From: Cytophagaceae bacterium
GTDB lineage: Bacteria; Bacteroidota; Bacteroidia; Cytophagales; Flexibacteraceae
Direction: 5' to 3'
Length of the DNA: 64,000 nucleotides
NCBI GenBank assembly: GCA_027485575.1
Contig: JAIXQU010000051.1
Coordinates: 1-64,000, forward strand
The notes below the pieces were generated by a model that saw nothing but the letters and a program-made list of their open reading frames with translations, did no database searches and was not told where the DNA came from. Of the stretch, positions 5,946-36,799 are shown in pieces (positions within the stretch are counted from its first letter, which is position 1; each line of letters begins with the position of its first letter). The position numbers and the translations under genes are program-made.

Positions 5946-7497
5946 TTTTTTTGGATTTATCCTTAAAAATGTAGACGCTGTCCATTCTCGCATCATTTGG
6001 AAAAAACTTAAACGACTGCTGCAATTGATATTTTTTTTGAAATTGTTTGCCCACTTCAAAGGCTTCTTTTTCATCTTTCCAGACCAGAATAATCTCAGGA
6101 TTAAATTTTGAAAGAATCAAACTGTTGGTGGATGCATCTGTCAATCTATGGGGAATTTTTGTTTCTATTGTACTGAGAAAACTTGCCATTGCTTGATTGC
6201 TCAATCCAGGGTAATCTAAAAAACGGCATTCTTTACAATACCATCCGAGAAGTCCAATTGGTTCAAGAAGAATTTGTGAGGTAGCTGAACCGATTGTTTC
6301 TAGATGTTTAGCCAACATTTTGCTTTTTTCTGCTCTTAAAATGAATGCTTCAGATGCATTTTCAATTTTTGTTTTGGTAAAATCAAAAATTGAAACAGAC
6401 CAAACTAAAAAGAATGAAATCACCAACCAATAACTGGCATCAAAGTACCCAACCTGTCTTTTTTGGAGTTGTTCGTATATAACCTGCAAAGATTTTGAAG
6501 TCATATACCAATAAGCCACAAACATAGGAGAAACATACCATGGCCACCATGCCCCGGTGAGACTAAAAAGTCCATTATAGAGAAATAGCCATGAAATGGC
6601 TGGAAATAAGCATTTTATCGCTTTTTTATCTAAAAATACGGCAACTATTGTAATAAGTAGATACACGTATTTGCCTGAAAAGAGTAAATATCCAAGCCCT
6701 TTTTCAATTTCAATTTTTCTACTTATGAGATGGTTTGATTTTGCAACAATACTTTGGGGAATTATTTGTCCAAATATCAATTTCCCTATGCAAGCCCAAG
6801 TTAATAAAACTATCAGACCAAATGAAATTTGCATCAGTATTTCCTTTGGGCGTATCTTTTTTTGGTAAATGAGGTTTGCAAGATTTCCAATTCCTGCGAG
6901 AAACCCTTCGGGTCTTATAAATATTAGAAGCCACCCCCACCATTTACTTTTCTGGTTATGGTTTGGAAAAATGGAAAGCGAAAGGCAAAGCATATACAAA
7001 CATGTTTCAAGTCCGGAGTTTCCATAGTGAATATTTCTGAAATCCAGGTACAATGGCAGTGCACCTATAAAAACAAGAAGCAATAATTTGACATCTGCAT
7101 TTTGAAGTTTATTTATTGATTTCCATATAGTTATGATGAAAGCCATGGAGAGAAGTATCCCATTTACAATTGGGATAAATTCGTTCCAACTTTTTCCAAG
7201 GATAAGCGCAAAAATTCCATTCCAAAAGGGGTAAATAATTGAAGTGGATGTGTATCCCTGAACCGATTTTTCGAAATATGGAAATCCGGATTCTAAAAAA
7301 TTCCTGGTTATGCGAAAAGAAATAAACGCATCATCAAAATAATATGGAAAATAGTACGAGAAATAAGTCGTAATCAGAATTACAGCCAGCAGGCTGGAAA
7401 GCAATAACAGTATTCTGATTTTCAATTTTGTTCCACTCTTGATGGTCAATTTGGGAAATTCTAATGGATTAGAAAAACACAAAAAAGGGCAATCCAC
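5935..7497 (-). CDS. polytopic membrane protein, glycosyltransferase/mannosyltransferase-like
   Basis: 520 aa, many TM segments, N-terminal YYFDDAFISFRITRNFLESG typical of GT-C-like proteins; the true start may lie downstream of 7497. Confidence 0.55.
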   Translation of the reverse strand: MDCPFLCFSNPLEFPKLTIKSGTKLKIRILLLLSSLLAVILITTYFSYYFPYYFDDAFISFRITRNFLESGFPYFEKSVQGYTSTSIIYPFWNGIFALILGKSWNEFIPIVNGILLSMAFIITIWKSINKLQNADVKLLLLVFIGALPLYLDFRNIHYGNSGLETCLYMLCLSLSIFPNHNQKSKWWGWLLIFIRPEGFLAGIGNLANLIYQKKIRPKEILMQISFGLIVLLTWACIGKLIFGQIIPQSIVAKSNHLISRKIEIEKGLGYLLFSGKYVYLLITIVAVFLDKKAIKCLFPAISWLFLYNGLFSLTGAWWPWYVSPMFVAYWYMTSKSLQVIYEQLQKRQVGYFDASYWLVISFFLVWSVSIFDFTKTKIENASEAFILRAEKSKMLAKHLETIGSATSQILLEPIGLLGWYCKECRFLDYPGLSNQAMASFLSTIETKIPHRLTDASTNSLILSKFNPEIILVWKDEKEAFEVGKQFQKKYQLQQSFKFFPNDARMDSVYIFKDKSKKISH

Positions 7498-8045
7498 AAA
7501 AATCCCAGGAAATGCCAGAAAATAGTAACAATTTGTGCGAGTGTATTTTTAGCTGGGTTTAAACTGACTATAAATCCATCCACGTATCTTCTGTTTTTGA
7601 ATGAATCCCTTAAAACAAGAGCTAAACCAGTTAATCCAAAGGCCATGTGGGAAAAATGCAAACCTGATAAGATATAAATAAAAGCTCCTTCAATATTTTT
7701 GAAGTTAACGCCTTGATTAAAAAGGTTTTGCCAGCCCAATATCTGAAAAATACAAAATGCAATGGCAGCCAATACTGTTATTCCAATCCAACTAAAATAG
7801 GCTTTGAATAATTCTTTCCTGAAACACTTGTTTGCCTGATGAAGTGTTAGAGAACTCGCGAAGATAAAAACTGTACTCAGATAAAAGTATCCGGGGATTA
7901 TTATGTGCTTCCCACTCAAGTTGTTTACCCTTATAAGGTAAGCTATTATTAGGAATAAAAAGAGAATACCAGATCCAATTATCAGAAGCCAGATAATGGT
8001 TATGTAGGGATTTCCTCTTGCTGTTGGTAAACTTTTCATTGCCAT
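7461..8045 (-). CDS. cytochrome c oxidase subunit III family protein (heme-copper oxidase subunit III)
   Basis: 194 aa, five TM helices; LTLHQANKCFRK, GLHFSHMAFGL, FWHFLGFLWIALF pattern of COX3. Confidence 0.75.
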   Translation of the reverse strand: MAMKSLPTARGNPYITIIWLLIIGSGILFLFLIIAYLIRVNNLSGKHIIIPGYFYLSTVFIFASSLTLHQANKCFRKELFKAYFSWIGITVLAAIAFCIFQILGWQNLFNQGVNFKNIEGAFIYILSGLHFSHMAFGLTGLALVLRDSFKNRRYVDGFIVSLNPAKNTLAQIVTIFWHFLGFLWIALFCVFLIH

Positions 8046-8126
8046 AATGACTAAACAACCTTAATCAACAAATGGTTGTAACAAAAAAAATCAAGCCTAC
8101 AATTTGTTTAAATACCCATCTGAATG

Positions 8127-8438
8127 CTACAAAATAAAACAATCGATGACAAGTTGTTTTCCCGCACGTTCATTCACCAGTTTTATTATTTGGGTTTTAG
8201 AATAGGTTAATTGTTGTCGTAGCGGAGCATTATCTACAACAATATACAAAATTTTATTTTCTACTTTTAAGCTTTTTGTATGTCTGGATATCACGGGTCC
8301 AACCAAAGTTTCCCATTCAGCGTTTATCCTTGAAATCAGTAGTTTTTCACCTAAATGATTAGATTTAAGCCAATTATCAATTGCCTCTTTAAAGGTAGTA
8401 GCTTCTGTGCTTCTCAGATTTTTTGGCTTGATCAACAT
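8127..8438 (-). CDS. DUF721 / DciA-like protein
   Basis: W.TLVGPVISRHTKSLKVENKILYIVVDNAPLRQQLTYSKTQIIKLVNE pattern of DUF721. Confidence 0.75.
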   Translation of the reverse strand: MLIKPKNLRSTEATTFKEAIDNWLKSNHLGEKLLISRINAEWETLVGPVISRHTKSLKVENKILYIVVDNAPLRQQLTYSKTQIIKLVNERAGKQLVIDCFIL

Positions 8439-8490
8439 TGTTTTGCAAGTTCTTTATATTCAATTAATTTTCCGCTTTAATAAACAAAAA

Positions 8491-8862
8491 ATGAAAAAAA
8501 TATTTTTATCGCTTTCTTTAGTTATTGCTCTAAGTACATTAAGCTTCAGTCAGACAACGCAGTATGAATTCCAACAAATGACTGCGGTTGAATCCGTAGT
8601 TCCAGGTGGACTCGGTCGTTCCAGGTTAATTACCTCCGCCAAAGATGGTAGTATGGAAGAAATCAAACTGGAAAACTTTTTCAGCTTTGTAGGTATCAAT
8701 TTTGGAAACATAAAGGAAAATGATAAAATCCTTGCCGGAAAAATCGAGGAAAAAGTAAATGCCGGCTGGGAGTTGGTTTCAATAACTCCAGGAGTTTATG
8801 CGGCAGATAAAAGCACGGGTATTTTTATTACCAGATATCTTTTCAGAAGAGTAAAAGCATAA
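8491..8862 (+). CDS. secreted DUF4177-like small protein
   Basis: Signal peptide MKKIFLSLSLVIALSTLSFSQ; C-terminus GWELVSITPG..FITRYLFRR resembles DUF4177. Start moved from 8407 to the ATG at 8491. Confidence 0.5.
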   Translation: MKKIFLSLSLVIALSTLSFSQTTQYEFQQMTAVESVVPGGLGRSRLITSAKDGSMEEIKLENFFSFVGINFGNIKENDKILAGKIEEKVNAGWELVSITPGVYAADKSTGIFITRYLFRRVKA

Positions 8863-8865
8863 GTA

Positions 8866-10725
8866 CTAGGATTTCTTTTTGGAAAAATCTTTTTTCCATT
8901 CCTTAAAAAGTAAAACCAGGCCCTCCAGTCTGGTTTTGTTTTTTACTAGGCTTTCAATTTCCTGGATAGAATAGCCAGATTTACCAGAAAGAAAACGAAT
9001 ATCTTCTTTTTTGAATGGTTCATTTAACCGGGCACTATACTCTGGAATCCATCCTAAAAGTCCAATCTTTTGGACAATTTCATAGTTTGGGTCTTCTGGC
9101 CTCACATCATTGTAATAAATTAAATTTACCTTTTGGTTGATGAGATTCCATTGAAGGGAGTCAATAGAAATCTTGTGAATTGAAGTCCTTGCTTTGATGG
9201 ATATGGCTGCGGCTACACCTGCCGCCTGGCCGAGAATCATCCAACATGGTTCCATTCTAAGGCAACTGTATCCAACGTAAGATGCTGAAACGGGTACCGG
9301 AGTTAAAACATTATCAATTTGCAATGGGACCATGACCTCAAAAGGAATAGTAAAGGGTTTTGTCTGATAAGAAATAAACCCATCAAGATTTTTTTTGTCG
9401 GCTTTTCTTTTTTGCATGGCGTGGCTTTCAATTGGATAATGACTTGTTCCGATTGAAGATTTATGTATTGGCGGCCGGCCATTTGGTTTTTCTGGTAAAG
9501 CATCATGGGCGGTAAAAATATATTTTCCTTCGATTCTCCTGCCTTCCCCAACATAAATCTGCCGGGGGAAATTATCATGGTCCCGATATTCATCATTGGC
9601 AAAACCAAACTCAAGGGCTTCTTTCCTGAAACGTAAAGGAACTGCACTGTCATTCTGAACAAAATAAATTAATCCGAGGGTATAAGATTGTAACCTCCTG
9701 GCAAATGCATCTCTCCAATTCCAATCCGAGTTTGGATATGGCCAACTCTCTTCCGGCAGTTCGCTGGATACCAAAGCTCTATGGTGGCTATTGGCGTCAA
9801 ATTTTTTGTTTGGAAGCTTTACAAGGTTGAAAATTCCTGCAGTTTTATCGTTTTTTGGGAGAAAACCAGTTACAATTCCGGAACGAATATCATCCAGTAA
9901 AATTTGATATTCATACCGGTTGTATGATTGTGGTTTTGATATTTTTTTCTTCTTTTCTGGGTCGTTGGTAAGGCATAGTTTATAATTGTAGGCCTGTATT
10001 GATGAATCTCTCTCTCCAATTGAGCCGGTTTCGAGACTATCGTTTCCCCAGATTTTATATATTTTCCCTTCCATTGGTTCCCCAAAATCAGATTTGTTTT
10101 CTTTTTTGGTTCTAAATCTGCAACCAAATGCTGCCGCCAAATCACCTTCATAAGAGGCATCGATAAATACTTTTCCCTTAATCCAAACTGATTTTTTGCT
10201 ATTATTTGCCTTAGAAATTTTGATTTTTTCAGGAAGATTATTTTGGAATTTAACATTTGAAATGTTGCTATCAAATTGATATTCTTTTAGAATTTCAATG
10301 TTTTTTTCCTTTTTTAAAATAGAGGTAAATACTTTTTCGGCAACATGGGGTTCAAAGTGGAATCCATCGGATGCATCTTTAAATTGCTGGGATTCAACCC
10401 CATATTTTTTGGAATAGTAGTGTTTTATTTCATCAATAAATTCTTTAAAAATTCCACTTGCTAAATCTCTTGATTGGATATCGGTTTCACCCAATCCAAT
10501 TGCAGGTAGGCCGCCAATGTGATTTGTCCTCTCAATCAGAACGACTTTCATTCCCAATCTTGATGCGGAAATGGCGGCTGCAATTCCTCCTGGAGTTGCC
10601 ATTAAAACTACAACATCAAATTCTTTTTGAGGTTCAGGCCTTTCCTTTTCCTTTGAAGGCAGGGAGATTAGCAAAAAGGATAAGGTTAAAACCAAATAAT
10701 ACTGGGTTTGAAATTGCCTTATCAT
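8866..10725 (-). CDS. FAD-dependent oxidoreductase (FAD_oxidored family), exported
   Basis: FDVVVLMATPGGIAAAISASRLGMKVVLIERTNHIGGLPA dinucleotide-binding motif, FIDASYEGDLAAAFGC; signal-like MIRQFQTQYYLVLTLSFLLISL start (the ORF track extends to 10824). Confidence 0.82.
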   Translation of the reverse strand: MIRQFQTQYYLVLTLSFLLISLPSKEKERPEPQKEFDVVVLMATPGGIAAAISASRLGMKVVLIERTNHIGGLPAIGLGETDIQSRDLASGIFKEFIDEIKHYYSKKYGVESQQFKDASDGFHFEPHVAEKVFTSILKKEKNIEILKEYQFDSNISNVKFQNNLPEKIKISKANNSKKSVWIKGKVFIDASYEGDLAAAFGCRFRTKKENKSDFGEPMEGKIYKIWGNDSLETGSIGERDSSIQAYNYKLCLTNDPEKKKKISKPQSYNRYEYQILLDDIRSGIVTGFLPKNDKTAGIFNLVKLPNKKFDANSHHRALVSSELPEESWPYPNSDWNWRDAFARRLQSYTLGLIYFVQNDSAVPLRFRKEALEFGFANDEYRDHDNFPRQIYVGEGRRIEGKYIFTAHDALPEKPNGRPPIHKSSIGTSHYPIESHAMQKRKADKKNLDGFISYQTKPFTIPFEVMVPLQIDNVLTPVPVSASYVGYSCLRMEPCWMILGQAAGVAAAISIKARTSIHKISIDSLQWNLINQKVNLIYYNDVRPEDPNYEIVQKIGLLGWIPEYSARLNEPFKKEDIRFLSGKSGYSIQEIESLVKNKTRLEGLVLLFKEWKKDFSKKKS

Positions 10726-10765
10726 TAATTTTGAAGAAATTGATTTTTCTGTAAATGTATCAAAT

Positions 10766-11428
10766 ATGACGTATAGCCAATTGACGGAAGATGGTTCAAT
10801 AACACTTTTTTCTGAAAAGTTCAATGAAACCTACCATAGCCGAAAAGGGGCCTTAACAGAATCTCTTCATGTGTTTATTGAAACCGGATTGAAATACAAA
10901 TCTCTGGAAAAGAAAGAAATAAAAATTGGAGAAATCGGACTTGGTACGGGATTGAATGCAATTCTTAGCCTTGAATTTGCTCAAAAAACGGGACTTGATA
11001 TTGATTATTGTTCTATGGAAGCATTTCCCATTTCCAGTCAGCTTAAGCTTGAGATATTGGATAAATACCCCAAGGATTTTGTTAGTGAGTACCAAAAAAT
11101 CCTGAATCTTGAGGCAGGGAAAAGGGAACAGCTAAATAAATTTTTTGCTTTTTCCTGGTTCAATAGAAGTTGGCCTGATTTTAATCCCTTTTCTGATTTG
11201 GATGTTGTTTTTTATGATGCATTTGCACCCGATACTCAGCCAGAAATGTGGGATGAAGTTGCTTTGAATCAGGTGTTTAAATCATTAAATGAGGGTGGAA
11301 TTCTGGTTACCTATTGTGCCAAAGGATATGTTAAGCGGAATTTGAAAAAAGTTGGCTTTCAAATTGAAAGTCTCCCTGGACCTCCCGGAAAAAGAGAAAT
11401 GACAAGAGCAACCAAGAAGTTTATTTAA
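10766..11428 (+). CDS. mnmD: tRNA 5-methylaminomethyl-2-thiouridine methyltransferase-like (MnmD)
   Basis: EIGLGTGLNAILSLEFA; DVVFYDAFAPDTQPEMWDEVALNQVFKSLNEGGILVTYCAKG; RKREMTRA-like end. Confidence 0.87.
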   Translation: MTYSQLTEDGSITLFSEKFNETYHSRKGALTESLHVFIETGLKYKSLEKKEIKIGEIGLGTGLNAILSLEFAQKTGLDIDYCSMEAFPISSQLKLEILDKYPKDFVSEYQKILNLEAGKREQLNKFFAFSWFNRSWPDFNPFSDLDVVFYDAFAPDTQPEMWDEVALNQVFKSLNEGGILVTYCAKGYVKRNLKKVGFQIESLPGPPGKREMTRATKKFI

Positions 11429-11431
11429 CTT

Positions 11432-12922
11432 CTATTTTTTTAAAAAGAATTTGATTGGTTTCAAATTTGGTGGAAGTGTATCCTTTTTATAAGATTCTTT
11501 CAGTTTTAATGAAATTGGATTTAGATATCCGTAATCAATCTTTTGAATGGGTTGGAAATTGGATTGTGTGACGCCCTTTGTTGTGACTTTGGATATTTTT
11601 TTCTTTTTGATTATTGCTTTTTGGCTTGGTGATTTGGTGTTGTTGATTCCAACATTCGACTTTTCATCATTCCATAGAAAAGATTCAGAATCCCCAACGG
11701 CATACATTTCTGAAACGGAATCAGTTTTTGTCAACTGGATATAAGCTGCTGTTATCAGATTTACCCGTTTTGGCTTAGTGATCATAACCATCATTGAATT
11801 CCTTTTTGCCCGTATAATTTCTACCAGAGAATCTTTATAAATTTCAATTGTATCAGCCTCTATATACATAGAATCGTTTTGAATATGGGCATTACGAACC
11901 AGGAATATTTCTTTACTTTTTGGTGTTTTTATAATAGACAATGAATCGCCATATCCATCAAATTGTCCCCTGATGTTTATTTTATGGAAGAAATTATATC
12001 TTTCAACTGAATCCTCTTTTCTGGAAGTAAGAAAAGGCGAATAGATAAACAGCTCCTTTTTTTCCTTGTCCATAATTCTGGTTTTGGTGCTACCCTCCAT
12101 ATCCATGGCCTTTTTACCTAGAACGGCTTTTTGCCCGGATGAAATGATGGCAGAATCGGTAGACGCAATTTCAACATCTCCTTTTAACAAGTAATCATCA
12201 CCAGTTGGAATAATTTCTTTTGCTTTAATCTTGACGTCTTTTCTGGTTACCTGGGTGCCGGCACTTCTGGAAATTTTATTCGTTTTTAAGTCGATCTCAA
12301 TCATTTTGCCAGCGATTTCATCATTTTTCTTTTTGAAAATGATTCTTGCTTTCTTACTCATTTTGAGCAAGTTGGTAGATTTATCCAGATAAATGGTATC
12401 AGCTATTCCTTTAACCGTATCGTTTTCCCACTCAGCATGTCCAATTAATCTTAAATTTCTACTACCAGAGAAAATTATGCATCTATCAGATTTGAACCGA
12501 ATTCCGTTTGCTGTTCCACTTGTAAATGAATTGGAGGTAAGAATTTTGGTATTCATATCATACATAAATGCATTTGACTTGATTGCACCTTCTGCACTAT
12601 TTATCACCGCATTTCCAATTACATTGGCCAACTTTTTGGATGGATAATAAATACCAGAATCACCAGTAACCACCATGCCGTTACTTCTTAAAGTGAAATC
12701 TCCTTTTAAAATGGCCCTTTTAGGATTTTGATAAATATCCGCATGACGGGCCTTAATTGTATCCTCGGGATTGCGCAGTTCTATTTCACCATCAATGGTT
12801 TTATGATCAGCAGATTTTAACTCCTTTCCCTTCCAGAAAATCTGTTGGGCATTTGAATGGAGCACCAAAATAAAAAAAAAGAGGCTAAAAGCCCCTTTTG
12901 TTGAAAAAATAGTCCTAATCAA
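11432..12922 (-). CDS. OstA/LptA-like protein (exported)
   Basis: Signal peptide then OstA repeats (DIYQNPKRAILKGDFTLRSNGMVVTGDSGIYYPSKKLANVIGNAVI). TTG start 2 nt after the rplT stop. Confidence 0.78.
   Translation of the reverse strand: MIRTIFSTKGAFSLFFFILVLHSNAQQIFWKGKELKSADHKTIDGEIELRNPEDTIKARHADIYQNPKRAILKGDFTLRSNGMVVTGDSGIYYPSKKLANVIGNAVINSAEGAIKSNAFMYDMNTKILTSNSFTSGTANGIRFKSDRCIIFSGSRNLRLIGHAEWENDTVKGIADTIYLDKSTNLLKMSKKARIIFKKKNDEIAGKMIEIDLKTNKISRSAGTQVTRKDVKIKAKEIIPTGDDYLLKGDVEIASTDSAIISSGQKAVLGKKAMDMEGSTKTRIMDKEKKELFIYSPFLTSRKEDSVERYNFFHKINIRGQFDGYGDSLSIIKTPKSKEIFLVRNAHIQNDSMYIEADTIEIYKDSLVEIIRAKRNSMMVMITKPKRVNLITAAYIQLTKTDSVSEMYAVGDSESFLWNDEKSNVGINNTKSPSQKAIIKKKKISKVTTKGVTQSNFQPIQKIDYGYLNPISLKLKESYKKDTLPPNLKPIKFFLKK
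12871..12897 (-). terminator. intrinsic-terminator-like hairpin for the infC-rpmI-rplT unit, inside the OstA-like ORF
   Basis: Minus strand AAAAGGGGCT-TTT-AGCCTCT-TTTTTTTT: 7-bp stem with one G-U pair, 3-nt loop, 8-9 T tract. Confidence 0.6.
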
Positions 12923-30021: not shown

Positions 30022-30924
30022 GTGGTTCAAATTGAGTTGGCATTGCAAGTAGAATCTTTATTAAAAAATAAAAATTTTAGTTGTTTTGTGGCTTGTTGTA
30101 AAAGATTAATTAAGTCGGGTTTGGAAATCATTTTCTTGTTTTTATTTATTGGGTTAATCATCTTGTTTACCTTTATTGGAGGTGGAGGCCGAAATTATCG
30201 TAGTTTAAAAGAATTCAGAAGTCTAAAGCGTAATACCAGCCACCCTCAGATTTCAGATTCGATTCTTAACACCGAGGTTGAGTTTTACAAAAAGCTTGGT
30301 GAAGAAGAAAAAATCAGATTTAGAAACGAAACTCAATGGTTTTTAGAAAATATCAGGATTACACCGATTGGTTTTGAACTTACTGAACTTGATAGGCTCC
30401 TGGTTGCTGCATCTGGCATCATCCCGATTTTTAATTTTCCGGAATGGCATTTTTACGATTTGGATGAGGTAATGCTTTTCAAAGACTCCATTAACGTCGA
30501 TTTTGAAACCAATGCACACGACAGCAATATTTTGGGCATGGTAGGTTCAGGAAAAATGGAGCGAAAAATGGCCCTTTCAAGAAAAGCTCTTTATGATGGA
30601 TTTAATAATAAAACCGACAAGTTCAATACTGCCATTCATGAGTTTATTCATATGGTTGACATTGCGGATGGAACAATAGATGGCTTGCCTAAAGTGCTGA
30701 TGGACAAACAATATGCCTTGCCCTGGTTAAAATTGATACGGGAAAAGATTAGCCATATTAAGACGGGTAATTCTGACATTGACAGCTATGGTGCAACCAA
30801 TCTTTCAGAGTTTTTTGCTGTTGCTGGCGAGTATTTTTTTGAAAGGCCAGACTTATTGAAAATGAAACATCCCGAGCTATTTGAGCAAATGAACAACTTC
30901 TTCCATGGGAAAAATACAAGCTAA
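30022..30924 (+). CDS. MtfA-like zinc-dependent peptidase with N-terminal TM segment
   Basis: LLVAASGIIPIFNFPEWHFYDLDEVMLFKDSIN; HEFIHMVDIADGTIDGLP (HExxH). GTG start. Confidence 0.85.
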   Translation: MVQIELALQVESLLKNKNFSCFVACCKRLIKSGLEIIFLFLFIGLIILFTFIGGGGRNYRSLKEFRSLKRNTSHPQISDSILNTEVEFYKKLGEEEKIRFRNETQWFLENIRITPIGFELTELDRLLVAASGIIPIFNFPEWHFYDLDEVMLFKDSINVDFETNAHDSNILGMVGSGKMERKMALSRKALYDGFNNKTDKFNTAIHEFIHMVDIADGTIDGLPKVLMDKQYALPWLKLIREKISHIKTGNSDIDSYGATNLSEFFAVAGEYFFERPDLLKMKHPELFEQMNNFFHGKNTS

Positions 30925-30995: not shown

Positions 30996-32153
30996 CTAAA
31001 AGAAGGATCTTCCTTCATTTACCATTTTCCTAAGCAAAACAGAGCATCGGTATCTTGGGTCGTGGTAAGAGGAAAACAGGTCATCCAGTTGGTTTACAAT
31101 GGATTCTATCCCAATTTCATCAGCCCATTTTAATAAGCCTTTTGGATAATTCACACCTTTGGTCATTGCCAGGTCAATTTCAGGAGCAGAAGAAATTCCA
31201 TAATGCAGTGCTTCTGAAGCTTCATTTATCAGCATAGCCAAAACACGAGTGAATATCTCTTTTCCCAAAATCTCATCCTCATTGGGTTCTGGCCTGGTTG
31301 TCCCGTTTTCATAAGAATAAAAGCCTTTTCCTGACTTCCTTCCCAAATATCCTGCTTCGAAATGTCTTTTCTGCGTGAAAGAAGGCATATATCTTGGGTC
31401 ACAAAAAAAGGAATGGAAAACAGTTTCAGTAACCGTATAGTTGATGTCATTTCCTATAAAATCCATGAGTTCGAATGGCCCCATTGGAAATCTACCAAAT
31501 TTTTTTAAGGCCCAATCAATGGTGGAAAAATCTGCAATTCCTTCATCATAAATGCGAAGTGCCTCCCCATAAAAGGGTCTGGCAACCCGGTTGACAATAA
31601 AGCCTGGTGTATCTTTGGCAACCACAGTGGTTTTTCCCCAGTTTTGAATGGTTTTGTTGGTTTTTTCAACTACCTCAGGATTGGTTTGAATGGCTGGGAT
31701 TATTTCAACCAGTTTCATAATCTGAGCCGGATTGAAAAAATGGATTCCGATAAATCTATGCGGCTTTTTACATGAGGATGCCAAAGAGGAAATGGAAAGG
31801 GCCGAAGTGTTGGAGGCCAAAATGCAGGAGTCAGAAACCAGATTTTCGAGTTGGCTAAAAATGAGAGATTTAGCTTCTTTGTTTTCGATAATCGCCTCAA
31901 TTACCAAATCACATTCAGAAAAGTCATTTAAATCATTGGCAATAAAAATTCTTTCCAAAATTTCATCCGCCTCTGTTTGTGCGACTTTAGCTTTTGCAAC
32001 CAAGCCGGAAAGCGATTTTTGAATTTTGCCTTTTACCTGGGAAAGTGTGGCTGGGAAGCTGTCAAAAACGATTACTTTTTCCCCTGAGCTGGCGGCAACC
32101 TGGGCTATGCCGATTCCCATCGTTCCAGCCCCTAAAATACCAATTATTTTCAT
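30996..32153 (-). CDS. paaH: 3-hydroxyacyl-CoA dehydrogenase (PaaH-like)
   Basis: ILGAGTMGIGIAQVAASSGEKVIVFD; SNTSALSISSLA; GIHFFNPAQIMKLVEII; within a paa operon. Confidence 0.87.
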   Translation of the reverse strand: MKIIGILGAGTMGIGIAQVAASSGEKVIVFDSFPATLSQVKGKIQKSLSGLVAKAKVAQTEADEILERIFIANDLNDFSECDLVIEAIIENKEAKSLIFSQLENLVSDSCILASNTSALSISSLASSCKKPHRFIGIHFFNPAQIMKLVEIIPAIQTNPEVVEKTNKTIQNWGKTTVVAKDTPGFIVNRVARPFYGEALRIYDEGIADFSTIDWALKKFGRFPMGPFELMDFIGNDINYTVTETVFHSFFCDPRYMPSFTQKRHFEAGYLGRKSGKGFYSYENGTTRPEPNEDEILGKEIFTRVLAMLINEASEALHYGISSAPEIDLAMTKGVNYPKGLLKWADEIGIESIVNQLDDLFSSYHDPRYRCSVLLRKMVNEGRSFF

Positions 32154-32974
32154 TTTCCTTTAAAAACGGGTTTTCTCTTTTCTAAAAAAGCCTGAATTCC
32201 TTCTTTGCAATCTTCTGATTCGCTGGCTTCTATCTGAAGCCTGGTTTCGGCTTCCAATTGTTGTTCAAGGGTATGATTTAAGCCCTCGTTGAAAGCCTTT
32301 TTAGTTAGTGCCAATCCGTAAGTTGGCATATTTCTTAGGTTTTCAGTTAAATTCTCAACAAAATTTCTGAATTCTTCGTCTGGAATCGATTTGTATATCA
32401 TTCCCATTTTTTCAGCTTCAATGGCAGAAATTTTATCTCCCAACATAGAAATGGCCAAAGCTTTTTGAAATCCAATTAGTTTTGGTAGAAAATAAGTTCC
32501 TCCACTGTCTGGAATCAATCCAATGGCACTAAAAGCCTGAATAAAATTTGCAGATTCAGTTGCCACAACAATGTCGCAAGCCAAAGCAATATTGGCCCCG
32601 GCACCTGCGGCCACGCCATTTACCGCAGCCAAAACTGGCTTTTCTAAATTTCTGATTGCTAGAATGATTGGGCCATAATGTTCTTCTAAAATGGCTTTAA
32701 ATCCCGGGTGAAGTTCAGGATTGGTCACCTCAACGAGATCTTGTCCTGCACAAAAGGCCTTCCCTTCTCCAGAAATGACTACCACGCGAATTTCCGGGTC
32801 TTCATTGCAATCCCTGAGTGCCTTCTGGACAGCAAAAGCCATCGATCTATTGAAACTATTGTAAGACTTAGGTCGATTTAGAATAATTTTTCCTATGCCA
32901 TTCGTTTTTGTAAAAAATATGGTTTCTTCCATTATTGATTGGTCTGAAATTATTTTTGAATCATTAAATAACAA
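32150..32974 (-). CDS. paaG: enoyl-CoA hydratase/isomerase (PaaG-like)
   Basis: GEGKAFCAGQDLVEVTNPELHPGF; AAVNGVAAGAGANIALACDIVVA. The start is probably at MEETIFFTK, downstream of the listed ORF start. Confidence 0.87.
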   Translation of the reverse strand: MLFNDSKIISDQSIMEETIFFTKTNGIGKIILNRPKSYNSFNRSMAFAVQKALRDCNEDPEIRVVVISGEGKAFCAGQDLVEVTNPELHPGFKAILEEHYGPIILAIRNLEKPVLAAVNGVAAGAGANIALACDIVVATESANFIQAFSAIGLIPDSGGTYFLPKLIGFQKALAISMLGDKISAIEAEKMGMIYKSIPDEEFRNFVENLTENLRNMPTYGLALTKKAFNEGLNHTLEQQLEAETRLQIEASESEDCKEGIQAFLEKRKPVFKGK

Positions 32975-32980
32975 ATTGGT

Positions 32981-33472
32981 TCACAGACACTTGAAATAAT
33001 CAAAAGGCTCATGGCAATCCTGGCATTGGAACAAAGCCTTACAAGCAGTAGAACCAAACTGACTGATTAATTTGGTGTTTGTTGAACCACATCGGGTGCA
33101 TTTAACTATCCTTTCTCCATGAAGTAGCGCCCTTTTATCCATGGAAGCATCCATGGGTGGAGCAATGCCATAATCTTTCATTTTTTTCCTGCCTGATTCT
33201 GAAATCCAGTCTGTTGTCCAGGCCGGAGAAAGAACCAATTTAATTTTCCCCGTATAGCCTGCTTTTTGAAGTGCCGATTTAATATCATCGCCAATAACAT
33301 CCATGGCGGGACAACCAGAATATGTAGGAGTAATGGTTACGGTTACTTCTTTATTCTCAATTTCAATTTCCTTTATAATGCCCAAATCCTCAATGGTTAA
33401 CACAGGAATTTCAGGATCTGAAACTGATTTCAGAATCTCCTTTATTACGTTTAAAGTAGAGTTCGGGTTCAT
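32981..33472 (-). CDS. paaD: phenylacetyl-CoA epoxidase subunit PaaD
   Basis: SVSDPEIPVLTIEDLGIIKEI; YSGCPAMDVI; C-terminal Cys-rich CTRCGSTNTKLISQFGSTACKALFQCQDC. Confidence 0.94.
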   Translation of the reverse strand: MNPNSTLNVIKEILKSVSDPEIPVLTIEDLGIIKEIEIENKEVTVTITPTYSGCPAMDVIGDDIKSALQKAGYTGKIKLVLSPAWTTDWISESGRKKMKDYGIAPPMDASMDKRALLHGERIVKCTRCGSTNTKLISQFGSTACKALFQCQDCHEPFDYFKCL

Positions 33473-33478
33473 ATTGGC

Positions 33479-34231
33479 TTACCAGTTCATCTGTGGGTAG
33501 GTTCTTTGCATATATTGCAAATCAGCCAAAATAAATCCGAGATGTTCTGAATGTACACCTAATTTGCCTCCTTTCTGAGACCAGTCTACACCTTCAACTG
33601 AAAGTGCAGCTTCGTTGAATATGTATTTTGTATCGCTGAGGAAATCTGCTTTTACCAAATCAAGGTTGGCTCCGATTCCAAGTTGGGACATCTCATTTTC
33701 TACTTCCGTTTCCTCAAAAATTCCTCCACAATAAGTCCATAAGATAGAAACCGCTTTTTGAATTTTACCGTGACTTTCTTCAGTTCCATCACCTAGTCTT
33801 TTGACCCATTCTGAGGAAAAACGATGGTGATATTGAACCTCTTTAATCGATTTTTGAGCAATTGCTGCAATCTGAGAATCTTTACTGCCTACCAACTGGT
33901 TTAATAGAGGTAAATGATATGCATCAAATAAATATTGCCGGGCAATTACCCAGGCAAAATCGGTATTGGGTTGTTCTACTAACCTGTAATTTCTATATTC
34001 ATGCTCGTACCTAAGAAAAGCTAAATCATCCTCTGTCTTTCCAAGTCCTTGAATTTCAGCTGCATATTGCAAGTAATTTCTAACTTGTCCGAACAAATCC
34101 AAAGAAATATTTGTAAGACCAATGTCTGTTTCAAGATTGGGGCCATGTCCACATAGTTCAGAAAGCCTGTGTCCCAAAATCAATGGGTTATCTGCAAGGA
34201 TTAAGAGGTAGTTGTAAATTTTTTGGTTCAT
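33479..34231 (-). CDS. paaC: phenylacetyl-CoA epoxidase subunit PaaC
   Basis: YLLILADNPLILGHRLSELCGHGPNLETDIGLTNISLDLFGQVRNYL. Confidence 0.95.
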   Translation of the reverse strand: MNQKIYNYLLILADNPLILGHRLSELCGHGPNLETDIGLTNISLDLFGQVRNYLQYAAEIQGLGKTEDDLAFLRYEHEYRNYRLVEQPNTDFAWVIARQYLFDAYHLPLLNQLVGSKDSQIAAIAQKSIKEVQYHHRFSSEWVKRLGDGTEESHGKIQKAVSILWTYCGGIFEETEVENEMSQLGIGANLDLVKADFLSDTKYIFNEAALSVEGVDWSQKGGKLGVHSEHLGFILADLQYMQRTYPQMNW

Positions 34232-34232
34232 T

Positions 34233-34517
34233 CTACATGTGGGTTAGTTCATCTGGTAAAATGTAAAATGTTGGATGCCTGTAGATTTTGTCAGCGGCAG
34301 GTTCAAACAATTCTCCATTTTCTTCCGGATTAGATGCGGTAATTTCTTTTGAAGGGACTACCCATATACTAACACCTTCTTGCCGTCTGGTATAAACATC
34401 TCTTGCATTTTCGATGGCCATTTTCGCATCTGTTGCATGAATGCTTCCAACATGGCGATGATCTAGTCCACTTTTACTTCTGATAAATACTTCCCAAACG
34501 GGCCATTCTTTTTTCAT
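34233..34517 (-). CDS. paaB: phenylacetyl-CoA epoxidase subunit PaaB
   Basis: WPVWEVFIRSKSGLDHRHVGSIHATDAKMAIENARDVYTRRQEGVSIWVVPS. Confidence 0.95.
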   Translation of the reverse strand: MKKEWPVWEVFIRSKSGLDHRHVGSIHATDAKMAIENARDVYTRRQEGVSIWVVPSKEITASNPEENGELFEPAADKIYRHPTFYILPDELTHM

Positions 34518-35530: not shown

Positions 35531-36607
35531 TTATTGATCAAAATCTACAACTACTTTTTCAGTGAGTGGAACTGCCTGGCAGGTTAATATATAACCAGCT
35601 TCCACTTGTTCTTTTTCAAGGGCATAATTTACACTCATTTCCACATTGCCCTCAATAAGTTTTGCTTTACAGGTACAGCATACCCCTCCTTTGCAAGCAT
35701 ATGGCAAATCTGCATTTTTGCCTAAGGCTGCTTCAAGGATATTTTCTCCATTTCTAGGCATTTTAAACTTAAAGTTTTTTCCTCCTTCAATAATTTCAAT
35801 TTCAGAAATGAACATTAAATTCTGAGAATTCTGCTCAGTTTTTCTTTCTTTTTTCTGCCCGTTGGCTGAGAAAAACAGCTCAAAATGAATTCTTTTTTCG
35901 TCTACCTTTTCTTTCAGGAGAAAATTCCGAATCATCAAAATCATTTCTTCGGGTCCGCAAAGGAAATAATGGTCAACTGACTCCGTGGAAATCAAATAGG
36001 AAGAAATTTTTTCAAGTTTTTCCTCATCCATCCTTCCGTTAAAAAGGGAAACATCTCTTTGCTCCTGGGTAAGGAAATAATAGACCTCAAACCTTTCCAG
36101 AAATTGGTTTTTTAAGGCTTCAATTTCTTCCTTCAAAATAATGGAAGCCGCATTCTGATTTGTGTAAAACAAAACAAATCTGGAATCCGGTTCCTGTATC
36201 AAATGCGTTTTAATAATGGAAAAAATTGGAGTAATCCCACTTCCGGCAGCAAAAGCCACATAACTTTTTTTTGCCTCCGGGTTGGAGGGAACGTGGAAAT
36301 TTCCATTGGGGTGACCCACATCCAGCGTGTCACCCACTTTAAACTTCTCATTAATAAAACTTGAAAACACGCCTCCTTCTATTTGTTTGATGGCCACTTT
36401 CCATAAGCCATCCAAGGGACTGGAACAAAGCGAATATGACCTTCTGATTTCCTCTCCGTTGATGGTAGCCCTAAGGGTTAAATGCTGCCCAGGAACAAAC
36501 CTGAAAGATTCCTTTAGATCCTCAGGTACATCGAATGTTAAAATGGAACAATTCAAAGTTGTTCTTTGAATGTCTTTAACTTTGAGTGGAAAAAATTGAA
36601 TGGCCAA
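35531..36607 (-). CDS. paaE: phenylacetyl-CoA epoxidase reductase subunit PaaE
   Basis: FNR-type reductase ([10 protein letters not shown]) plus C-terminal 2Fe-2S ferredoxin [16 protein letters not shown]. Confidence 0.93.
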
Positions 36608-36632
36608 AATCCGGTGTTTTAAATTGTATTAG

Positions 36633-36640
36633 CAAAACTA
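36633..36640 (-). promoter_or_regulatory. -7 element of the predicted paaE promoter
   Basis: Minus strand TAGTTTTG (exact TAnnTTTG), preceded by TTTG (36661-36664) with a 20-nt spacer. Confidence 0.65.
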
Positions 36641-36654
36641 ACAATTGTTAGTTT
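36635..36654. promoter_or_regulatory. candidate repressor operator (PaaR/TetR-type) overlapping the paaE promoter
   Basis: Perfect 20-bp palindrome AAACTAACAATTGTTAGTTT inside the -33/-7 interval. Confidence 0.65.
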
Positions 36655-36799
36655 CTAAGACAAAATTGTTGAAGAAATGTTTTTAAGGTTCTCTCCAAAG
36701 GCTCAAAATAGAGAATGAAAGATTACAGAAATTTTTCCAATCTCGCTTATTATCAAATTGTTATAACTGAACAGAAAAAAAGACTCAACTCGATAAAAT

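Follow-up and report, generated by a model that had tools for sequence, protein, structure and literature searches.

The perfect palindrome that lies just upstream of paaE in this Cytophagaceae genome is, at a probability we put at roughly 0.86, the operator of a TetR-family PaaR of the Bacteroidota that would act in trans on the paa operon. The site itself, its conservation in relatives, its linkage there to a single TetR clade and the occurrence in the same genome of a TetR from that clade are direct observations, made on a window of 64,000 nucleotides (the whole stretch of DNA analysed), on the genome it belongs to and on related genomes. The pairing of this particular PaaR with the site we infer from clade membership, from gene linkage in relatives and from the motif. 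The outcome is a widely conserved and testable candidate operator for phenylacetate catabolism in Bacteroidota, in which an unlinked TetR gene is putatively paired with its target through clade and motif.

The preliminary description of the window had claimed a perfect 20-bp palindrome inside TTTG-N20-TAGTTTTG upstream of paaE, and on re-reading the sequence is as claimed: plus-strand positions 36633-36664 read CAAAACTAACAATTGTTAGTTTCTAAGACAAA, and the palindrome, AAACTAACAATTGTTAGTTT, ends 27 nt short of the paaE TTG start. It is the longest of the window's perfect palindromes, the runner-up having 14 bp. An order-3 Markov model gives a chance expectation of 0.135 palindromes of 20 bp and 0.04 of 22 bp per 64 kb; with about 0.18 of at least 20 bp expected, the length is only modestly unusual and by itself weak evidence, and we dropped it as proof of function. 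A genome scan found the exact core ACTAAC-N4-GTTAGT in a single copy in 3.9 Mb, which is the window site, and the reversed pattern, used as a control, was likewise found once; one exact core per genome of this size is near chance level and would not be surprising. Allowing up to two mismatches the scan gave 52 scattered sites, and the one-mismatch sites on contigs C84, C146 (16-bp core) and C187 (14-bp core) were rejected as they lie in or near unrelated genes. Since the length is weak evidence and the single genomic copy is near chance, the case rests on the position of the palindrome and on its conservation before paaE in relatives.

As to position, TTTG is the -33 box of Bacteroidota promoters, and on the minus strand a TTTG is followed after 20 nt by TAGTTTTG (Table 1), an arrangement that agrees with Bacteroidota sigma-A promoters (TAnnTTTG and TTTG about 19-20 nt apart). 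The last 8 nt of this promoter overlap the palindrome by 6 nt. If the -7 box is placed at -12 to -5, where start-site mapping in Flavobacterium put the TAnnTTTG consensus (PMC9723704), the predicted +1 follows and the operator would extend across -26 to -7. It would thus fill the spacer and overlap the -7 box, a geometry that fits repression.

Table 1. Coordinates of the predicted operator, promoter elements and paa genes in the window
Feature	Position	Strand	Basis or remark
PaaR operator (predicted), palindrome AAACTAACAATTGTTAGTTT	36635..36654	.	conserved core ACTAAC-N4-GTTAGT at 36637-36652
-33 box TTTG, paaE promoter	36661..36664	-	sequence; TTG at the same 8-nt spacing to the operator in 31/38 sites
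-7 box TAGTTTTG, fits TAnnTTTG	36633..36640	-	overlaps downstream operator half-site; kept in 17/38 sites
Predicted +1	36628	-	21-nt leader; from -7 box placement at -12 to -5
paaE, TTG start 36607	35531..36607	-	TIGR02160, 422.6 bits
paaA	34572..35525	-	TIGR02156, 538.3 bits
paaB	34233..34517	-	TIGR02157, 143.3 bits
paaC	33479..34231	-	TIGR02158, 251 bits
paaD	32981..33472	-	TIGR02159, 192.6 bits
paaG-like enoyl-CoA hydratase/isomerase	32150..32974	-	best NCBIfam model TIGR02280, 278.6 bits, below cut-off 345
paaH-like 3-hydroxyacyl-CoA dehydrogenase, last gene of the apparent operon	30996..32153	-	NF006124 492.9 bits, TIGR02279 435.1 bits, both below cut-off

The five genes from paaE to paaD each exceed their NCBIfam cut-offs, and the start of paaE, checked by eye against the ATG, GTG and TTG starts of homologues, corresponds to them. 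The paaZ gene is separate from this operon, on contig C57. Convergent with the operon end, a weakly MtfA-like gene (DgsA anti-repressor) lies at 30022-30924 on the plus strand.

Conservation was surveyed over 80 paaA loci, among them 43 Bacteroidota loci with paaE directly before paaA and with upstream DNA. ACTAAC-N4-GTTAGT, with at most one mismatch, stands at the paaE start in 33 of these 43 other paaE-first loci. Elsewhere on those contigs, which total 1.04 Mb, there are only 8 further matches, some lying in front of TetR genes. The site is absent from the scanned stretch in the other 10, of which four (L054, L058, L060, L061) carry it before paaA and one (L046) before a TetR gene; elsewhere in Bacteroidota sites are also found before the TetR gene, paaA and the E1 gene. 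Within the genus each of the five genomes carries a single exact core, always at the paaE 5' end, and this site has stayed exact though the surrounding sequence has diverged and the linkage of paaE to the TetR gene has been lost. A lack of the palindrome before paa genes in relatives, on which the preliminary description was prepared to give up its reading, is thus the opposite of the outcome. Variation is confined to the centre and outer flanks, with centres AATT (here), AAAC, AAGC, AGTT, ATTT and others, and counts over 43 sites give ACTAAC and GTTAGT around a centre of A-N-N-T/C, the half-sites being fixed by the exact-match selection. Judged from these sites the conserved unit is ACTAAC-N4-GTTAGT, and the perfect AATT centre is just one variant. 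The Saprospira grandis version reads ACGAAC-N4-GTTCGT; here the change is symmetric, in keeping with binding by a protein dimer. Seven genomes of the same order (G005-G008, G010-G012) have paaA and carry neither a PaaR-clade TetR nor the exact palindrome.

The promoter around this operator appears to take two forms. Of 38 sites, 31 share a TTG placed 8 nt ahead of ACTAAC, every other offset being represented at most 5 times. At 17 sites including that of the window (class a) the right half-site forms TAGTTTTG, and at another 17 (class b) the TTTG forms the end of a TAnnTTTG box that lies 28 bp further upstream, 8 nt before the operator; no site has both registers and four have neither (38 sites; Fisher p = 2e-7, kinship ignored). 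Class b is assigned by its -7 box only, as no clear -33 TTG is seen in class b sites. The class a operator would cover the spacer and -7 box and the class b operator would begin at about +5, and both positions would suit repression. The four congeners have no TTG at the exact offset; three of them have one 1 nt closer. Over the upstream regions L003-L082 the predicted promoter register is species-dependent around a fixed operator. Two such registers around one operator would be a clear example from nature of a promoter turning over while its repressor site stays in place.

The preliminary description had taken the palindrome for the operator of a TetR/PaaR-type repressor and had placed the regulator gene outside the window. 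The first idea gains backing from the conserved site and its linkage to a TetR clade, and a candidate that agrees with the second was found on contig C166. This genome has only two TetR_N genes, on C166 and C9. The C166 gene (C166:111-701) is followed by a gene for a fused 2-oxoacid dehydrogenase E1; the TetR product combines TetR_N (45.3 bits) with TetR_C_24 (70.5 bits), the same architecture as in paaE-adjacent TetRs, and has the recognition helix EAASLYNHI, common to paa-linked TetRs (xAASLYNHI). In the tree it falls within the paa-linked clade of Bacteroidota (98/98 for the clade in full; inner forks 99/97 and 97/87), with Saprospiraceae as its nearest paa-linked neighbours. Clade, recognition helix and domain pair together point to a PaaR orthologue relocated from paaE. 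In most relatives' loci the TetR gene directly precedes paaE and the operator, in several families of the order it heads the paa operon, and in one congener (G001) the C166 orthologue is about 6 kb from the site and so still paa-linked. An exact site is present in 8 of the 15 genomes that have a PaaR-clade TetR, as against 5 of the 44 that have none (Fisher p = 0.002, kinship ignored). KstR2, MbdR and FadR, which respond to CoA thioesters, are among the nearest solved chains of the C166 TetR. Its best-scoring solved relative is a Thermus thermophilus TetR (PDB 3vpr, E 4e-23), presumably PfmR; unlike the C166 protein it falls outside the paa-linked clade in the tree, and on pTT27 of HB8 a similar TetR, taken here to be identical with it, adjoins an acyl-CoA dehydrogenase gene.

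The regulon appears narrower than had been anticipated. Sites had been expected before paaZ, paaK and a TetR gene; in the genome itself none precedes paaZ or the TetR-E1 unit, and paaK was not detected there. Across the genus, too, no operator was found before paaZ or the TetR-E1 unit, where the genome of the window offers only 110 bp upstream of the TetR gene and congeners with longer upstream DNA have no operator either. The autoregulation usual for PaaR is therefore not seen in the genus. With a single site in each genome the regulon would be very small, and no wider one is seen in the genus; sites before further paa genes and the regulator's own gene, a usual PaaR trait that varies among known PaaR systems, were not found here.

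Comparison with known PaaR systems is instructive at the level of the operator. The Thermus PaaR recognises CNAACGNNCGTTNG, and phenylacetyl-CoA causes its release (PMC9493321); in Thermus thermophilus HB8 the protein, TTHA0973, represses paa genes, has the in-vitro selected consensus AACnAACGTTnGTT, and when mutated leaves the paa operons derepressed 4- to 100-fold (PMC6651687). The preliminary description had likened the core CTAACA-AT-TGTTAG to the Thermus motif, and the likeness is borne out at 8 of the 10 fixed positions of CNAACGNNCGTTNG, with the same spacing; both are 14-bp sites at a promoter, equal in length and half-site register. The innermost pair differs, A/T here and G/C there, and it is a pair that varies among relatives. 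Unlike the Thermus system, we have here a Bacteroidota sigma-A promoter, a paaE-first operon, a regulator gene outside the paa operon and no PaaK detected in the genome. In Burkholderia cenocepacia PaaR is again a TetR repressor, with an inverted-repeat operator at paa promoters and release by phenylacetyl-CoA (PMC9493321), but that operator, ACCGACCGGTCGGTT, differs from ACTAAC-N4-GTTAGT. As known PaaR operators differ by lineage, the match in the window is a likeness to the Thermus type, compared via the operator. A 2026 survey predicts PaaR by gene context in flavobacterial paa clusters, in a PaaY-PaaR configuration (PMC13186573), and so likewise places PaaR in paa clusters of Flavobacteria; the part of the survey available to us gives no operator. 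Our search of the literature found no Bacteroidota PaaR site.

The mechanism we propose is a simple one. A PaaR dimer encoded by the C166 gene would bind both ACTAAC half-sites, covering roughly -26 to -7 of the paaE promoter, and in doing so would keep sigma-A RNA polymerase from the spacer and -7 box, leaving paaEABCD-paaG-paaH off. Accumulating phenylacetyl-CoA would then bind PaaR and cause its release, allowing transcription of the operon to start near 36628. Binding, repression, phenylacetyl-CoA as the effector and the start site are all predictions from sequence.

Other explanations of the palindrome deserve consideration. It would be improbable, in our estimate, that the site is bound by another regulator such as the C9 TetR or a non-TetR protein, an idea that draws its force from the C166 gene being unlinked to paa in this genome, so that clade membership and the linkage seen in relatives have to carry the pairing. 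Against it stand the enrichment of exact sites in genomes with the PaaR clade and the proximity of the G001 orthologue to its site. The C9 TetR was itself rejected as a paa regulator: it lacks TetR_C_24, adjoins a formimidoylglutamase-like gene and is weakly similar to paa-linked TetRs. An RNA element, whether a hairpin in the 5' leader or an intrinsic terminator serving the upstream gene, strikes us as very improbable. Like any palindrome it does fold, here into a stem of 8 bp (-11 kcal/mol, z -3.05), but the stem is A+T-rich with no T run after it, which is not what a terminator looks like, and an Rfam search gave no match; on these grounds the terminator or RNA element was rejected. Moreover, the sequence changes fall in the centre and flanks and are not compensated substitutions within the stem, as one expects of a site bound by protein, and transcription in this genome would leave out most of the palindrome, since the -7 box lies within it.

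It could also be argued that PaaR in this genus chiefly regulates the E1 operon and that the paaE site is an inherited relic, given that the TetR gene precedes E1 throughout the genus (five genomes). We find this barely credible, as the paaE site is exact in all five despite its diverged surroundings and the lost linkage to TetR, and no site is found at TetR-E1. A PaaR operator remains our preferred reading of the palindrome.

The E1 gene next to the PaaR orthologue bears on how the pathway may be fed. This fused alpha-beta 2-oxoacid dehydrogenase E1 (C166:723-2807; genome G000, locus L161) directly follows the PaaR gene throughout the genus (five of five genomes), and over 59 genomes of the order it is present (E below 1e-120) in 22 of 22 with paaA versus 3 of 37 without (kinship ignored). 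On the Saprospira grandis plasmid NC_016936.1 (L178) positions 5977-12555 carry TetR, E1 (65% identical), paaE, paaA, paaB, paaC and paaD, with the diverged operator at 6598 and 10014, before E1 and paaA. PaaK (TIGR02155) was not detected in any of the five genus genomes (this one and four congeners), and among 27 paa-positive genomes examined 11 have no TIGR02155 match and only two a strong one. The association of E1 with paa, together with no detectable PaaK in the genus, suggests that phenylalanine is degraded via phenylpyruvate and not via free phenylacetate; E1 may turn phenylpyruvate into phenylacetyl-CoA, giving a ligase-free start from phenylalanine. A joint reading for the Bacteroidota, which we offer tentatively and at slightly less than even odds, is that PaaR governs a phenylalanine-fed, ligase-free paa pathway in which the dedicated fused E1 would make phenylacetyl-CoA, both the substrate of the paa epoxidase and the inducer, from phenylpyruvate, and that the operator stayed fixed as the promoter switched between registers 28 bp apart, the same TTTG serving by species as the -33 box or as the end of the -7 box. 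A branched-chain role for the C166 E1 is possible; the genome has a second fused E1 on contig C123, 35% identical, that could fill such a role.
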